This document shows, piece by piece, positions 25,574 to 32,254 of a DNA stretch of 42,290 nucleotides. Below the pieces are notes generated by a model. That model was not told the origin of the DNA and ran no database searches. It saw only the letters and a list, made by a program, of their open reading frames with translations. This DNA is from Dehalococcoidia bacterium (GTDB lineage: Bacteria > Chloroflexota > Dehalococcoidia > CAUJGQ01). Every line of letters starts with the position of its first letter. Position 1 is the first letter of the stretch. The DNA lies in NCBI GenBank assembly GCA_035310145.1, contig DATGEL010000073.1, forward strand, positions 1 to 42,290, read 5' to 3'. Position numbers and translations under genes: made by a program.

Positions 25574-27007
25574 GTGGAACACAGTGAACATCGCGCGGCG
25601 CCGAAGACCGGGCAGCCGCTTCGGATAGGATTGCTGGGCCTTGCCGTGGCGCTGCTCACCGTGCTGGCGGGCGGCGCGACGCTGGCACGACCGGCCGCGG
25701 TGCGGGCCGACGATCCGCTGACGGTCAACGGCACGCCGTCGGTGCAGAATAGCTTCCCCAACGAGATGGTGTTCAACATCGACGCCGCCTCAGCGGCCGG
25801 CAATGTCACGGACGTCCAGTTGCACTACACGCTCGTCCCCGACCCGAACCAGCACATCGGCCGCGCCGACTTCGACCAGGGGCCGTCAGTGCACGCGCAG
25901 TTCCATCTGCGCACCTCGACGAGCCAGGGTTATCTGCCCCCGTTCAAGACGATTCACTACTTCTGGACGCTCGTGGATGCGGCCGGCAACAAGATGCAGA
26001 CGGACGCTGCCGATTTCATATATGCCGACCCGCGCTTTCCCTTTAAACAGCTCAGCAACGGCAACCTGACGCTGCACTACTACAACGGGACCGACACGGC
26101 CGCGCGCAACATCCTCAACATCGGGCGGCAGGCGCTGGACAAGGCGAGCCAGCTCGACGGCGCCCCGCTCGACTTTCCCATCCAGCTCGTCGTCTACGGC
26201 AACCAGGCAGAAGTCGCGGCGGCGCTCTCGCACGAGTCGAAGTCGTCCGACCCCAATATCCTGGGCCAGGCCAACGCCCCCGACATCGTCGTTCTGGACG
26301 CCGGCGATCTGCGCGGCGCCGAGAACGAGGACACGGTGCGCCACGAGCTGACCCATCTCGTCAACGCCCGTGCTGTGAAGGACGGCGTCGACGGCTCGCT
26401 GCCGCTTTGGCTCGACGAGGGCCTCGCCGTGTTCAGCCAGAGCGACCCAGGCGGCTTCCGCGATGCCGTCAATCAGGCGATCGCGCAGGACCAGGTGGTG
26501 TCGCTGAAGAACCTCTCGCCCGGCTACCGCGGCTCCAACCCGGACGTGTTCTACGGCGAGGCGTGGAGCCTGACGCGCTTCCTGGTCGGCACGTATGGAC
26601 CGGACAAAATGGCGAAGCTGCTGGCCGCCTTCAACGCCAGCCAGTCGCCGGACCAGGCGTTCACCGCCATCTACGGTCAGAACCGCGACGGCATCTACAA
26701 TGCCTGGCGCAAGAGCGTCGGCCTTCCGGCCGCCGCCGTGGCCAGCGGCACGCAGGCGCCGCCGGCGCGCAACGCCGCCGCCGCCGCGCCTGCCCCCTCG
26801 GCCGAGAGCGCGGGCGCCGCGAACGCGCAGGGCACCCAGCCGCCGGATACGGCGCCGGTACGCTCCAAGCCCGCGACATCATCGTCCGGTGATACGACCG
26901 TGACCGTCGTGCTGGCGGTCGCCGGCGTCGCCATTTTCCTCGCGCTGCTGGCGATTGCGATCACGGGCGGGCTGATGTTGAGTAAGCGCGGGGGGCGGCC
27001 TTCTTGA
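25574..27007 (+). CDS. Membrane-anchored gluzincin-type zinc peptidase (Peptidase MA-like)
   Basis: A 477-residue exported protein. It has an N-terminal signal segment (LRIGLLGLAVALLTVLAGG) at about 16-34. An Ig-like or beta-rich domain runs to about 155. The peptidase domain has HELTH at 257-261 and a likely third zinc ligand Glu282 in LWLDEGLAVF, the gluzincin HExxH...E layout. YGEAWSLTRFLVGTYG follows. An Ala/Pro-rich linker (about 385-435) leads to a C-terminal transmembrane helix (VTVVLAVAGVAIFLALLAIA) and a short basic tail. The active site would lie outside the membrane. Substrate is unknown. The GTG start at 25574 has GGAGGG upstream. It converges on the glutaredoxin-like gene. Confidence 0.87.
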   Translation: MEHSEHRAAPKTGQPLRIGLLGLAVALLTVLAGGATLARPAAVRADDPLTVNGTPSVQNSFPNEMVFNIDAASAAGNVTDVQLHYTLVPDPNQHIGRADFDQGPSVHAQFHLRTSTSQGYLPPFKTIHYFWTLVDAAGNKMQTDAADFIYADPRFPFKQLSNGNLTLHYYNGTDTAARNILNIGRQALDKASQLDGAPLDFPIQLVVYGNQAEVAAALSHESKSSDPNILGQANAPDIVVLDAGDLRGAENEDTVRHELTHLVNARAVKDGVDGSLPLWLDEGLAVFSQSDPGGFRDAVNQAIAQDQVVSLKNLSPGYRGSNPDVFYGEAWSLTRFLVGTYGPDKMAKLLAAFNASQSPDQAFTAIYGQNRDGIYNAWRKSVGLPAAAVASGTQAPPARNAAAAAPAPSAESAGAANAQGTQPPDTAPVRSKPATSSSGDTTVTVVLAVAGVAIFLALLAIAITGGLMLSKRGGRPS

Positions 27008-27028: not shown

Positions 27029-27802
27029 TCAGCGGCCGGGGATGATCAGGCCGCTGGGACGGACGTTCTTGCGCGGGGCTTGTTCCGGCCACGCGAGTGG
27101 CGTGGCTTCGCCGCGCGGCGGGGCGGTCAGGGTGCGGCTGGTGGTGGCCTTGACGATCTGCTCGGCGAAGACCTCGGGCTCGACCAGGCCGGGAAAGCCG
27201 GCGCGGTCCTCGATCACCGTAAAGGGCACCTGCTGCACGGCGTAGCGATCCGCGAGCCGCGGAAACTCGGCGATCTCGATCACCTCCGCCCTCACCTGCT
27301 TGCTCTCGACCGCGAAGGCGAAGGCCGCGGTCATCATCGGCCCGCAGTACTCCGACTCGGGGGAAACGAAGACGCGGACCCGCACCGGCTGATGCAGCCG
27401 CTTCAGCAGCTTTGCCGCGCGGGGCGGCAGTTGGGCCTTGTTCTGCGACATCAGCAGCAGCGTCTCGACCAGCGGCGCAAACAGGTAGCTGATCGGGATG
27501 CCGTAGAAGGTGATCGGGCGGTTGAGCACGCCGCGGATCACCGTCGCCGGCACACGCTCGATCCCGAGCCGCGTGTCGAGCGCCTTGTCCGCGCCGCGTT
27601 CGTGCACGGTCAGGCGCAGCAGCGAACTTACGCGCGCCAGGTCTTCGAGCAGCGCCTGTGCGTCGTTGCAGAACCGGCACTCCTCGCGCCCAGGCACCAG
27701 CATCGCCAGCGGCTTCTGCGTGAAGAAGTCCAGCTTGACCGGCTGCTGCAGCCTCTCGGCGAAGATCGCCTTGACCTGGTCGAGCTCCGCAAGCGGAATC
27801 AC
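27029..27802 (-). CDS. Glutaredoxin-like double-thioredoxin-fold protein with one degenerate site
   Basis: A 257-residue protein with two thioredoxin-like units, as in archaeal-type protein disulfide oxidoreductases. Unit 1 has an intact CxxC (C42-R-F-C45) and a cis-Pro in RVPATV. Unit 2 has the cis-Pro segment QQVPFTV, but its active site reads S150-E-Y-C153 where the family has CPYC, so the nucleophilic Cys is Ser. A single redox pair is thus left, in the N-terminal unit. The GTG start at 27802 is preceded by GAGGG. It sits 39 bases after the CDP-alcohol phosphatidyltransferase stop and may be the last gene of that operon. The physiological role is unclear. Confidence 0.8.
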   Translation of the reverse strand: MIPLAELDQVKAIFAERLQQPVKLDFFTQKPLAMLVPGREECRFCNDAQALLEDLARVSSLLRLTVHERGADKALDTRLGIERVPATVIRGVLNRPITFYGIPISYLFAPLVETLLLMSQNKAQLPPRAAKLLKRLHQPVRVRVFVSPESEYCGPMMTAAFAFAVESKQVRAEVIEIAEFPRLADRYAVQQVPFTVIEDRAGFPGLVEPEVFAEQIVKATTSRTLTAPPRGEATPLAWPEQAPRKNVRPSGLIIPGR

Positions 27803-27841: not shown

Positions 27842-28465
27842 TCAGTGCGGCACTTCGGCGCCGAGCTGGCCGCGCAGCTTCTGCCAGGCATGGTATAGCC
27901 TCTGCACGGCGGTGAGGTTCGTCATCACGGCGAGCAGCCAGACTGTCGCCGGCAGCACCCAGCCCCATCCGGGCCGCCCGGCCAGCAACAGCGCGCCGGC
28001 GAGCAGGAGGACGCGCTCGCTGCGAGTGAAGATGCCCTCGTTCAACTGCTGGCCGATCGCCTCAACGCGTGCCTTCACGTAGCTCGTCTGGATCGAGCCG
28101 GTGATCGCGGCGAAAAGCAGGAGCGGCTGCACGCGGTCGCCTTGCGCGACATAATACGCCAGCAGGCCGAACAGATTGGCCGCCTCGGCGTAGCGGTCCG
28201 CGGTCGCGTCGAAGACGGAGCCGAACAGCGAGGACTCTCCTGTAGCCCGTGCGACGGCGCCGTCGAGCAGATCCAGGGCGCCGCCCGCCAGGATCAGGCC
28301 GCCGCCCGCCGCAAAGTTGCCGGTCGCGATGGCGGCGCCGGCAAGGACATTGAGCGCGAGGCCGCCCGCGGTGATCATGTCCGGCGTCATGCCGGTGCGG
28401 GCGATCACTTTGGCCACCGGGTCGGCGTAGCGCCGCGGAATGGCGTGAGGGATGAGCGAGGGCAC
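27842..28465 (-). CDS. CDP-alcohol phosphatidyltransferase (PgsA / PI-phosphate synthase type)
   Basis: Integral membrane enzyme of 207 residues that transfers a phosphatidyl group from CDP-diacylglycerol to an alcohol. The diagnostic motif Dx2DGx2ARx8Gx3Dx3D is complete: DLLDGAVARATGESSLFGSV followed by FDATAD. Several hydrophobic helices follow. I prefer GTG 28465 over GTG 28471 because AGGAGG lies five bases before the former and directly abuts the latter. It follows a PimA-like glycosyltransferase by 33 bases. In that context phosphatidylinositol-phosphate synthesis is more likely than phosphatidylglycerol-phosphate synthesis, but the motif alone does not decide it. Confidence 0.88.
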   Translation of the reverse strand: MPSLIPHAIPRRYADPVAKVIARTGMTPDMITAGGLALNVLAGAAIATGNFAAGGGLILAGGALDLLDGAVARATGESSLFGSVFDATADRYAEAANLFGLLAYYVAQGDRVQPLLLFAAITGSIQTSYVKARVEAIGQQLNEGIFTRSERVLLLAGALLLAGRPGWGWVLPATVWLLAVMTNLTAVQRLYHAWQKLRGQLGAEVPH

Positions 28466-28498
28466 GCGCACCTCCTGGGTCCGCCGGCATGCCGGGCG

Positions 28499-29653
28499 CT
28501 AGCTCTGCGGTCCCGGGCAGACCTTGCCGGGATGGATGCCGCGCTCGTACAGCAGCCGTTCGTAGTATGAGAGCACCTTGTGAGCGATGCGGTCCCAGCT
28601 GTACTGCTGAGCGCTCAAGCGGGCGCGCTCGGCCATCTCGTGGCGGGCGCGGTCGTCGGCGAGCAGGTGCACCAGCGCCAGCGCCAGCCCCTCCGAGTCC
28701 TGGGGGCGGGTCAGGCGCCCCTCAACCTCGTCGGTGATCACGGAGGCGTAGCCCTCGATGTTGCTGGCCACCAGCGGCTTGCCCGCCGCCATCGCCTCCA
28801 GCAGCACGTACCCCTGGCTTTCGTTGCCGGTGGCGGGAAAGCAACACACGTCCGCCGAGTGATAGTAGCGCGGGATGTCGGCGTCGCTCACATACCCCGT
28901 GAAGATGACGTCCGCCAGCTCGTGCTTGCGCACATAGCGCTCGTAGCCCTCGCGCAGGCGCCCGTCGCCGACGATCACGAGGCGGGTGTTGGGCAGCTCG
29001 CCCTTGATCAGCGGATAGGCGCGCAGCAGGTAGGCCAGGCCCTTGCGCTTTTCCATGCGCCCGACGAAGAGAATGTTGCGCTTGCCGTCACAGAGCTGCG
29101 GCAGCGGCCGCGGCTCGCCGCTGAACGGCGTCAGGTCGACGCCGTTGGGAATGATATTGAAGTAGCCGGCGAAGTAGCGGCTGACCAGGTGCTCGGCCGC
29201 GGGCGAGACGGCGATCTTGCCGTCAAGCCGGCGGTAGTAGCGCCGCAAGAGCGTGCGCGTGTAGGAGTAGAGGCGGTTGCCGCCCTCTTTGGCCGCGTGG
29301 AATGTGCCGACATTGACGGTTTCAGAATGGCGAAGGAACTGGATCGGCAACACGGGCATCAAGGGCTCGTGCACATGCACGACGTCGAAGCGCTCCTCGC
29401 TCAACACCTCTTTCACGCGGCCGCTGAGGCGCAGGTTCAGGGCGATGCGCGCCACCGAGCCGCTGGCGGGAATGGAGCGCGGCTTGCCGATCACAATCGT
29501 GCCGCGCGGCGCCGGCGCCAGCTCGTCCGACGATGGTCCGATGATCCTCGTCTCGTGGCCCAAAGCCGCGAAATTCTGCGCGAGGCGCGTGATGTGCGTG
29601 TTGACGCCGCCCGGCACGGCGAGGTCGTAGGGTGAGACGAGGGCGATCTTCAC
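28499..29653 (-). CDS. PimA-like GT4 glycosyltransferase
   Basis: GT-B fold glycosyltransferase of 384 residues. The N-terminus IALVSPYDLAVPGGVNTHI closely follows the phosphatidylinositol mannosyltransferase PimA pattern (CPYSFDVPGGV). The middle has DVVHVHEPLMPVLPI and VNVGTFHAAKEGG. The donor-binding domain has FVGRMEKRKGLAYLLRAY and the ESQGYVLLEAMAAGKPLVAS motif of GT4 retaining enzymes. It probably uses GDP-mannose or another nucleotide sugar on a phosphoinositide at the inner membrane face. The GTG start at 29653 overlaps the PHP-gene stop (GTGA). Alternative: another lipid or cell-wall GT4 acceptor. Confidence 0.88.
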   Translation of the reverse strand: MKIALVSPYDLAVPGGVNTHITRLAQNFAALGHETRIIGPSSDELAPAPRGTIVIGKPRSIPASGSVARIALNLRLSGRVKEVLSEERFDVVHVHEPLMPVLPIQFLRHSETVNVGTFHAAKEGGNRLYSYTRTLLRRYYRRLDGKIAVSPAAEHLVSRYFAGYFNIIPNGVDLTPFSGEPRPLPQLCDGKRNILFVGRMEKRKGLAYLLRAYPLIKGELPNTRLVIVGDGRLREGYERYVRKHELADVIFTGYVSDADIPRYYHSADVCCFPATGNESQGYVLLEAMAAGKPLVASNIEGYASVITDEVEGRLTRPQDSEGLALALVHLLADDRARHEMAERARLSAQQYSWDRIAHKVLSYYERLLYERGIHPGKVCPGPQS

Positions 29654-30405
29654 GATCCGCGCACTCCCGCGGCCATACGGCCGAGGACTTTGCTCGGCGT
29701 CGCCCACAGCGCTCGCGCGGTTTGCCGCGCGATCTGGCCGGCGCCGATCTCGCGCAGTCCGATGTGGCGGCCGAAGGCCGCACTGGTCGCGCCGCTCTCG
29801 ATCGCACGGCGCAGATCCGCGGCGCTGGAACCCGGAAAGCGGGTGAAGGCCGACCCGATCACCGGCAGATAGTGCGCGTCGCTGCCGCCCACTGGCGCCA
29901 GGTGCAGGCGCTCGCGGTTCAGCCCCGCGGCCCGTCGCCGGCTGATCCTGCCCGCCGGCGACGGGTTGGCCAGCTCGATGCCGTCGAACCACAGCCCATC
30001 CGCCCGCCGCGCCAGCACCCGCTCGATGCCGTGCCGCCCCAGGCTGCGCGTCAGCGGGCTGAGCGGATGCGGGATCACGGCCAGGCCGCCCTGCGCGTGA
30101 ATGCGATCCAGTGTTTTCGCCAGCGAGCGGAAGCTCGGCACGCGCTCCTCGATGAAGAGGGCGAGCAGGTGTCCCTCGAGCGTGGTCACTTCCATGCCCG
30201 GCACGAAGGCGAAGCCGTAGCCGCGCCCGGCGTGCAGCTCGCGCGCCCGCAGCGCCGGGGCAAGGTCGTCGTGGTCGGTGATCGCAATCGCGCTCAGGCC
30301 GCGGCTCGCCGCCTCTGCCAGCACCGCCGCGGGCGTGCCCATGCCGTCGCTGCCCGTGGTGTGGACGTGGAGGTCGGCGGTGCCCGTCGTCGCGCTGGCG
30401 CTCAA
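29650..30405 (-). CDS. PHP-domain phosphoesterase
   Basis: Metal-dependent phosphoesterase of the PHP family, 251 residues. Metal-ligand motifs appear in order: ADLHVHTTGSDGM near the N-terminus, ITDHDDLA, PGMEVTTLEGHLL, VIPHPLSP, and GGSDAHYLPVIG near 180. This matches the stand-alone YciV/TrpH-like type that acts on nucleotides or RNA ends. The start is a TTG at 30405, supported by GGGAGGGG upstream and by a TTGA overlap with the acyltransferase stop. It lies between acyltransferase and glycosyltransferase genes; its role there is not evident. Confidence 0.85.
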   Translation of the reverse strand: MSASATTGTADLHVHTTGSDGMGTPAAVLAEAASRGLSAIAITDHDDLAPALRARELHAGRGYGFAFVPGMEVTTLEGHLLALFIEERVPSFRSLAKTLDRIHAQGGLAVIPHPLSPLTRSLGRHGIERVLARRADGLWFDGIELANPSPAGRISRRRAAGLNRERLHLAPVGGSDAHYLPVIGSAFTRFPGSSAADLRRAIESGATSAAFGRHIGLREIGAGQIARQTARALWATPSKVLGRMAAGVRGS

Positions 30406-31361
30406 CCCTGCCCCTCCCGACCAGCGGCGGACGGCCGCTCGGCTTCAGTATACGCTCCGTCCACGGCCGCGGCCGGGGTGACGAACCACGGCTCAAGCAC
30501 CAGCCATTGCTCCGGATGCGCCCGCAAATAGGGGAGATAACGCCGCAGCAGGGCGGCCAGCGCCGCGCGCTGCGCCTCGGGCGCCCGCAGCGTGCGCTCG
30601 ATCGTGATCGGCGGCAGGAAGATGGCGCGCGTGCCGCGCCGCGTCCACTGCGCGATGGCCGGGATGATCGGGGCGCCGCTGGCGCGGGCCAGATCGATCA
30701 CGCCCGTTGGCGCCCGCACACTGCCGCCGGCGAACGGCACCGCGACGCCCGTGCCGGTGACGTCGCGGTCGATGAGCAAGGCGACGATGCCGCCGGCGCG
30801 CAGCGCCTTAAGCAGTGCACGCGCCCCGGCTACGTCGGCGTATACATAGCGCTGGCCGTGCGCCTCTCGCCACTGCAAAAACAGCGCATTGAGCTGCGGC
30901 GGCTGCAACCGCTCGATCATGGCGGTGTAGGACACGCCGCGGACGGCGAAAGCCTGCAGCAGCAGCTCCGTCGGACCGAGGTGAATGCCGGCCACGATCA
31001 CCCCGTGTCCGGCCGCGCGCGCCGTTTCCACGATCTCGTAGCCTTCGACGGTCATCGCAGCGTGGATGGCGCGGAGATCGCTGACGGGCACGCGCGCCAA
31101 CTCGACATAATAGCGAACCACGGACCGAAAGGCGCCGATCGCCGCCTGGCGAACGCGGCCCGGCGGCGCTTCGGGCAGCAGGATACGCAGGTTGGTCGAG
31201 ACCGCCTGGCGCTGAGTCGGCGCCAGCATCCAGGCGAGGCGCCCCGCCAGCGGCGCCAGCAGCCGGCCGCTGGGGCCGCTTCGCTGCAGCACGGCTCCCG
31301 CGAGCTGAAAGCCGCGCCAGCGCAGGCTCGCGGCAAGCGGCAGATGGTGGCTGGCGCTCAC
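30402..31361 (-). CDS. Lysophospholipid acyltransferase, HtrB/PatA-like (second copy)
   Basis: A 319-residue acyltransferase of the lauroyl/myristoyl (HtrB-MsbB) family, which includes mycobacterial PatA. The catalytic HX4E reads GIHLGPTE, and LIDRDVTGTGVAVPFAGG matches the second conserved block. RAHPEQWLVLEPWF is the C-terminal block typical of the family. The GTG start at 31361 overlaps the stop of the first acyltransferase (GTGA). Two copies side by side suggest acylation of two positions or two lipid intermediates. Acceptor identity is inferred only from neighbours. Confidence 0.87.
   Translation of the reverse strand: MSASHHLPLAASLRWRGFQLAGAVLQRSGPSGRLLAPLAGRLAWMLAPTQRQAVSTNLRILLPEAPPGRVRQAAIGAFRSVVRYYVELARVPVSDLRAIHAAMTVEGYEIVETARAAGHGVIVAGIHLGPTELLLQAFAVRGVSYTAMIERLQPPQLNALFLQWREAHGQRYVYADVAGARALLKALRAGGIVALLIDRDVTGTGVAVPFAGGSVRAPTGVIDLARASGAPIIPAIAQWTRRGTRAIFLPPITIERTLRAPEAQRAALAALLRRYLPYLRAHPEQWLVLEPWFVTPAAAVDGAYTEAERPSAAGREGQG
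30447..30452 (-). promoter_or_regulatory. Possible internal -10 element before the PHP gene
   Basis: TATACT on the minus strand, inside the end of the acyltransferase gene, lies about 42 bases before the TTG start of the PHP gene and upstream of its GGGAGGGG site. No -35 is seen. It could give extra transcription of the last genes of the operon. Confidence 0.3.
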
Positions 31362-32254
31362 GTGGCGACGGCGCGGCCGGCCGCAACCGGAGTGCGCCGC
31401 GGCCACATGCGGCGGAACATGTACCACTGCTCCGGATGGCGCCGAATCACGCGCTCATGCGCCTGCAAGATGCGCCGGGTAAGCAGCCGAACGTCATGTT
31501 CGAGGTCGCCGCTGTTGGGCAACTCGATCTCGAAGTCCGCGATTACCCGCACGCGGTCGCTCCAGGCGTGGCTGCGCAACTGGCTGACCGCGATCACCTT
31601 GGCGCCGGTGCGCAGGGCGATGCGGGCGGGTCCGGCGGGCACGCGGATCGGCGCGCCGAAGAACTCGACCTCGATGCCGCCGTCGTCCAGCGGCCGGTCG
31701 ATCAAGATGGCGAGCGTTTCATTGCGGCGCATCGAGCGGATGATGCCGGTCGCCGCCTTCTCCATCGGGATCAGCTTGACGCCGTGCTTCGTTCGCGCGG
31801 CGACCAGATCGTCGTTCAGCCGGCCATGGTCCTGCGTCTCGGCGATGGCGTTGAAGGCGTAGCCGCGCTGCGCCAGCACCGGCCCGCCGAGGTCCCAGTT
31901 GCCGAAATGCATGAGCACGAGAATGCAGCCACGGCCCTGCGCCAGCGCGGCGTCGTAGCGCTCCCATGCGTTGAACTCGAAGCGTTCGGCGAGCTGCGGG
32001 GCCGTCAGCTCGGGCAGGCGAATGAAGTCGACCAGGTACTTGGCGTAGTTGACGAACGAGCGTCTGGCGATGCGGCGCGCCTGCCGCCGCCGGCCCGACC
32101 CGAGTACACGACCCATGTTTGCGCTGGCGTTGGCGCGTTGTTCCGGCATGAAAAGCCAGGCCACGTAGGCGCCCAGCACCGCGCCGGCGTAGGAGAGGCG
32201 CAGCGGCGCCCGCACCACCAGCCAGCGCGCCAGGCAGAAGAGCCGGTAGACCAC
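31358..32254 (-). CDS. Lysophospholipid acyltransferase, HtrB/PatA-like (first copy)
   Basis: A 298-residue HtrB-family acyltransferase. An N-terminal hydrophobic segment (SYAGAVLGAYVAWLF) is followed by the catalytic MHFGNWDLGG (HX4D), then LAILIDRPLDDGGIEVEFFG and RRHPEQWYMFRRMW. Membrane-associated acyl transfer to a lipid or glycolipid is expected. The GTG start at 32254 has a GGGAAG stretch upstream. It opens the acyltransferase-PHP-glycosyltransferase-phosphatidyltransferase operon and diverges from an acetyl-CoA hydrolase gene. Confidence 0.88.
   Translation of the reverse strand: MVYRLFCLARWLVVRAPLRLSYAGAVLGAYVAWLFMPEQRANASANMGRVLGSGRRRQARRIARRSFVNYAKYLVDFIRLPELTAPQLAERFEFNAWERYDAALAQGRGCILVLMHFGNWDLGGPVLAQRGYAFNAIAETQDHGRLNDDLVAARTKHGVKLIPMEKAATGIIRSMRRNETLAILIDRPLDDGGIEVEFFGAPIRVPAGPARIALRTGAKVIAVSQLRSHAWSDRVRVIADFEIELPNSGDLEHDVRLLTRRILQAHERVIRRHPEQWYMFRRMWPRRTPVAAGRAVAT

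Follow-up and report, generated by a model that had tools for sequence, protein, structure and literature searches.

The window, the whole stretch of 42,290 nucleotides that was analysed, belongs to a 5.3 Mb genome of the phylum Chloroflexota (probably of class Dehalococcoidia, to judge by relatives that have small Dehalococcoides-like genomes and by named hits) and carries, between positions 27842 and 32254, a set of five genes on the minus strand in the order AT1-AT2-PHP-GT4-PIPS, in which every open reading frame is intact (Table 1). AT1 and AT2, as well as PHP and GT4, overlap at GTGA, AT2 and PHP overlap at TTGA, and a gap of 27 bp lies between GT4 and PIPS. A preliminary description made from the sequence had listed two acyltransferases, a PHP phosphoesterase, a GT4 enzyme and a phosphatidyltransferase on this strand, joined by GTGA and TTGA overlaps; the reading frames and their Pfam domains agree with this list, and the overlaps are present at three joints.

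Table 1. Genes of the five-gene cluster, with their positions in the window and closest matches
Gene product	Position	Strand	Domains and best match among solved structures
AT1, HtrB/PatA-type acyltransferase ('first' type)	31358..32254	-	Lip_A_acyltrans (PF03279); M. smegmatis PatA, E 1.2e-26
AT2, PatA-type acyltransferase ('second' type)	30402..31361	-	Lip_A_acyltrans (PF03279); PatA, E 2.8e-13
PHP-family metallophosphoesterase, candidate PI-phosphate phosphatase	29650..30405	-	PF02811 + PF13263; CehA/McbA-type domain
GT4 glycosyltransferase, PimA-type, GTG start	28499..29653	-	Glyco_transf_4 + Glycos_transf_1; PimA, E 1.1e-56
PIPS, CDP-alcohol phosphatidyltransferase	27842..28471	-	CDP-OH_P_transf; mycobacterial/Renibacterium PIPS, E 5e-26

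The next gene on the same strand (27029-27802) encodes a thioredoxin-like protein disulfide oxidoreductase, which was not seen in the cluster of the relatives examined. In addition, a secreted Peptidase MA-type protein is encoded on the plus strand at 25574-27007; two relatives that belong to this class encode a protein resembling it close to their cluster.

PIPS retains all 12 residues of the M. tuberculosis PI-phosphate synthase that were tested (D68, D71, D89, D93, R94, S132, Y133, K135, R137, R152, R155 and R195), the roles of which have been described for PgsA1 (PMC6506517). Among them are all four aspartates of the CDP-alcohol phosphotransferase motif D1xxD2GxxAR...GxxxD3xxxD4 (D68, D71, D89 and D93), which is intact as initially described, and a complete inositol-phosphate pocket formed by R94, S132, R155 and R195 together with Y133, K135, R137 and R152. 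The 12 residues are near-invariant in the PIPS proteins of other Chloroflexota clusters, with K135 often replaced by R, and the set is broken in most of the other CDP-alcohol transferases of the same genomes. In a quick tree, for which support is given as SH-aLRT only, the protein falls with the PI-phosphate synthases (93) and is well separated from the main set of PgsA-like proteins (99), although the inner order of the PIPS group is weak and two long odd rows lie inside it. The best NCBIfam scores, 138 bits for archaetidylinositol-phosphate synthase and 127 bits for PIPSynth, are both below the curated cut-offs (170 bits for PIPSynth); since other Chloroflexota homologues likewise score below the PIPSynth value, this cut-off, as judged from sequence, divides subfamilies rather than active-site types. 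PIPS-type proteins occur in 286 of the 301 sampled Chloroflexota genomes, and the synthesis of PI-phosphate by the enzyme of the cluster is very probable.

The host genome encodes a second CDP-alcohol phosphatidyltransferase with a full PIPS signature (contig C41, L302:6527-7303), and no PgsA-type enzyme was seen in it, its PF01066 matches being two in number and both carrying this signature. In a Dehalococcoides-like genome of 1.5 Mb, PIPS is the sole CDP-alcohol phosphatidyltransferase found, with MIPS and GT4 adjoining it and neither PHP nor an acyltransferase; this gene content predicts a membrane in which every CDP-DAG-derived phospholipid is inositol-based. With regard to the supply of inositol, a genome search recovered one inositol-1-phosphate synthase (MIPS, 439 aa) in the host, at a separate locus on another contig than the cluster, and in relatives an inositol-phosphate synthase of a 360-aa type is encoded directly upstream of the cluster.

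The glycosyltransferase had been called PimA-like, and this description holds, as PimA is its best PDB match (1e-56, with the best non-PimA match at 6e-22) and the catalytic residues are kept. When 91 sequences were placed in a maximum-likelihood tree, the GT4 proteins of the cluster formed a clade of 34 rows (33 from Chloroflexota and one from Goldbacteria; support 99/96) that is sister to the actinobacterial PimA clade (100/94), the latter including M. smegmatis PimA. All 29 GT4 paralogues, several of which come from the host's own genome, fall outside both clades, and one long-branch actinobacterial row is placed just outside them. In PimA numbering, the enzyme keeps the catalytic and acceptor residues G16, S65, R68, H118, R196, K202 and E274, while the acceptor site has the changes Q18N, Y62A, N63S and R70A. 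The actinobacterial PimA proteins themselves vary at Q18, Y62 and R70, and N63 is kept in nearly all of them. PimA-type GT4 proteins are found in 213 of the 301 sampled genomes. It appears highly likely from these comparisons that the acceptor is of the PI type.

Both acyltransferases have PatA as their best match among solved structures, as expected from their original description as HtrB/PatA-type proteins, and their best NCBIfam model is that of the PIM acyltransferase, with 170 bits for AT1 and 123 bits for AT2, which are below its cut-off of 209 bits. PatA uses a catalytic H126 and the acidic partner E200 (PMC4792965). The catalytic histidine is kept in both proteins, within HX4D in AT1 and within HX4E in AT2, and both have D at the position of E200. 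In a quick tree, again with SH-aLRT support only, the acyltransferases of Chloroflexota split into two old groups, 'first' and 'second', with AT1 in the one and AT2 in the other, so the duplication appears to be ancient and, on the sequence comparison, AT1 and AT2 are anciently diverged and both belong to the operon as it normally occurs throughout the phylum. The acylation of the glycolipid by these two proteins is likely, and members of the second family are candidates for adding a further acyl chain to such lipids. A plain PgsA or lipid A reading of the locus was rejected on the active-site residues and the trees.

The complete set recurs in identical gene order across many families of Chloroflexota, Thermogemmatispora carboxidivorans being one species that has it, and the operon is common to the phylum, its usual form being MIPS-AT-AT-PHP-GT4-PIPS. 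Among the matches listed for both genes, the distance between GT4 and PIPS is no more than 3 kb in 96 of 101 genomes of Chloroflexota, and the GT4-PHP pair is as close in 56 of 76, which is clustering far above chance. A scan of named genomes yielded, besides others, 26 loci of the type MIPS-AT-PHP-GT4-PIPS and 10 of the type AT-PHP-GT4-PIPS; rarer forms are MIPS-PHP-GT4-PIPS without an acyltransferase (four loci) and PHP-PIPS alone (three), and at 24 loci PHP has none of these genes as a neighbour. The duplicated acyltransferase and the inserted PHP gene, which had first been noted as differences from the mycobacterial genes, are indeed present, but they are not a local oddity, because both are conserved across the phylum; a local insertion of PHP is likewise ruled out by its conservation across families. 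In a genome of the same family as the host, AT-AT-PHP is retained, GT4 and PIPS do not adjoin it, and a PAP2_3-family protein is encoded just upstream on the opposite strand. A related cluster with the order PIPS-MIPS-AT-GT4-AT-PHP was seen outside Chloroflexota and Actinomycetota in a Candidatus Goldbacteria MAG, for which mis-binning is possible.

The PHP protein has the intact set of metal ligands typical of its family, and its AlphaFold2 model (pLDDT 93.8) has a PHP fold with a best Z of 21.5. The nearest solved folds are 3e38, 2anu, RNase AM and 2yb1, the substrates of which are nucleotides, RNA or unassigned. In fold and metal ligands, the protein resembles known PHP phosphoesterases such as RNase AM, the 3',5'-nucleotide bisphosphatase and the CehA/McbA group, yet it differs from them in having lipid genes as neighbours, in a C-terminal helix (222-250), and in that proteins of its type are fused to GT4 in Actinomycetota. 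Most homologues have a basic, amphipathic helix at this place, as would fit an enzyme acting at the membrane surface.

PHP matches were obtained in 184 of the 301 Chloroflexota genomes, some of them likely paralogues, and the company kept by this gene is informative. It is present without an acyltransferase at the four MIPS-PHP-GT4-PIPS loci (L087, L095, L096 and L099), which rules out that it is bound to acylation. It also adjoins PIPS without GT4 or an acyltransferase at three loci (L118, L126 and L128), including Ktedonobacter racemifer, and at about ten Ktedonobacterales loci, which rules out that it is bound to GT4 only. Within Ktedonobacterales, PHP either adjoins PIPS or sits within AT-PHP-GT4. 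No PimA-type GT4 was found in K. racemifer, where the best match reached 4e-20; in Dictyobacter halimunensis, which also belongs to Ktedonobacterales, PI has been measured as a major polar lipid (PMC12453558). Among 149 sampled Actinomycetota, a PHP match at E 1e-18 or better was obtained in 14, and in six of these it forms one protein with a PimA-type GT4, the GT4 being N-terminal and the PHP part C-terminal. The GT4 half of the fusions falls inside the PimA group, and their loci contain PIPS in all six cases and MIPS in five. Apart from the fusions, few Actinomycetota have the PHP orthologue, and hence PHP does not identify the mycobacterial enzyme. Finally, genomes of the Dehalococcoides type retain MIPS-GT4-PIPS without PHP and acyltransferases, so that PHP cannot be the sole solution, and another phosphatase would have to act there if PHP is the PI-phosphate phosphatase. 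A phosphatase of the PgpA type (PF04608), the only family so far identified as a bacterial PI-phosphate phosphatase, was absent from 39 of the 40 Chloroflexota genomes tested, the host included, which rules it out as the general solution in this phylum.

Taken together, these data suggest that the operon probably makes a glycosylated and acylated phosphatidylinositol, as the mycobacterial pgsA1-patA-pimA genes do. In the proposed pathway, PIPS would combine inositol phosphate from MIPS, encoded at a separate locus in the host, with CDP-diacylglycerol to form PI-phosphate, from which the phosphate group on the inositol would be removed, most likely by the PHP enzyme, to yield PI. The PimA-type GT4 would then glycosylate the inositol of PI with a first hexose, which is probably mannose, and AT1 and AT2 would each attach one fatty acid, the two at different positions. 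Glycosylated, acylated phosphoinositides had been anticipated in the preliminary description, and the PIPS signature, the GT4 tree, the MIPS gene and the PatA-like acyltransferases support them; a lack of MIPS, a phosphatidyltransferase of the plain PgsA type or a GT4 grouping with unrelated enzymes, named there as grounds against the idea, were all not what was found. The cluster would accordingly encode a genuine variant of the PI-mannoside pathway of mycobacteria that extends through the phylum, an assignment that is well supported by sequence.

The role of PHP is the part of this pathway that is drawn from genomic context, and we favour it as the candidate PI-phosphate phosphatase with some reserve, because only the step between PIPS and GT4 fits every setting in which the gene occurs. 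It is possible, if less probable, that the pathway runs as proposed and PHP has a side role, for instance on soluble inositol phosphates, on a by-product that is a cyclic or glycosyl phosphate, or in glycolipid trimming. The promiscuity of PHP enzymes, the nucleotide and RNA substrates of the nearest solved folds where a substrate is assigned, and the retention of GT4-PIPS without PHP in the Dehalococcoides-type genomes would all suit such a role; however, PHP still adjoins PIPS where GT4 and the acyltransferases have been lost, in a second phylum it forms a fusion with GT4 next to PIPS, the PIPS-to-GT4 step is the one step common to all its settings, and the PgpA-type phosphatase is absent. 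The same Dehalococcoides-type clusters could be read to mean that GT4 acts directly on PI-phosphate and that PHP takes the phosphate off afterwards, but this order of events is improbable given that PHP adjoins PIPS also where a PimA-type GT4 is absent. We therefore lean, by a modest degree, towards PHP being a previously unrecognised family of PI-phosphate phosphatases that has no relation to the Bacteroides PgpA-like enzyme and that would act in the synthesis of PI and glyco-PI across Chloroflexota and, as the GT4-PHP fusion, in some Actinomycetota.

GDP-mannose is the donor of PimA and its relatives, and the relation of GT4 to PimA makes mannose the probable sugar, a preference that is weaker than that for the PI-type acceptor. 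Another sugar, such as glucose, glucuronate or a hexosamine, would give a glyco-PI and not a PIM; it would be compatible with R196, K202 and E274, which are found in the paralogues too, but it seems unlikely with GT4 being sister to PimA, no non-PimA family lying closer, and PimA and its relatives using GDP-mannose. Lastly, an ordinary PgsA/GT4/HtrB set for a different phosphoglycolipid might be read into the scores of PIPS and the PatA-like proteins below the curated family cut-offs, and is very improbable in view of the complete PIPS residues, the separation of PIPS from the PgsA-like outgroup, the grouping of GT4 with PimA, and the presence of MIPS next to the cluster in relatives.

PI and PI mannosides are commonly regarded as an actinobacterial trait. 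According to a 2022 paper, bacterial inositol lipids were previously thought to be largely limited to Actinobacteria and Spirochaetes. The occurrence of PIPS and of the PimA-type GT4 across the sampled genomes suggests that inositol lipids probably belong to the basic make-up of Chloroflexota envelopes. Searches for PI mannosides in Chloroflexi, or for PimA together with Chloroflexota, returned no open-access paper, which is a weak sign of novelty, with subscription journals outside the scope. The PI-phosphate phosphatase has been called unidentified for mycobacteria (PMC6506517) and is PgpA-like in Bacteroides (PMC9246714), and the conserved PHP gene offers a testable candidate for a step to which no enzyme is assigned in mycobacteria. 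The Bacteroides cluster BT_1522-BT_1526 likewise combines MIPS and PIPS and includes a dedicated, PgpA-like PI-phosphate phosphatase (BT_1525, the deletion of which in Bacteroides thetaiotaomicron makes PI-phosphate accumulate), in a pathway leading to PI and an inositol sphingolipid (PMC9246714), whereas the Chloroflexota cluster lacks PgpA and has a PHP-type candidate, GT4 and acyltransferases. The mycobacterial pgsA1-patA-pimA genes also place PIPS, a PatA-type acyltransferase and a PimA-type GT4 next to each other on one strand; in Chloroflexota, a different phylum, the order is reversed (AT-AT-PHP-GT4-PIPS), two diverged acyltransferases are present, PHP is added, and MIPS often lies directly upstream in relatives. 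The order PIPS-AT-GT4 is found in many actinobacterial loci, that of Actinoplanes among them. Actinoplanes sp. TBRC 11911 also has a PHP orthologue that stands isolated, apart from the PIPS-AT-GT4 cluster of that genome and beside an acyltransferase that groups with the 'first' type of Thermogemmatispora, and this pair of genes looks like a transfer from Chloroflexota.
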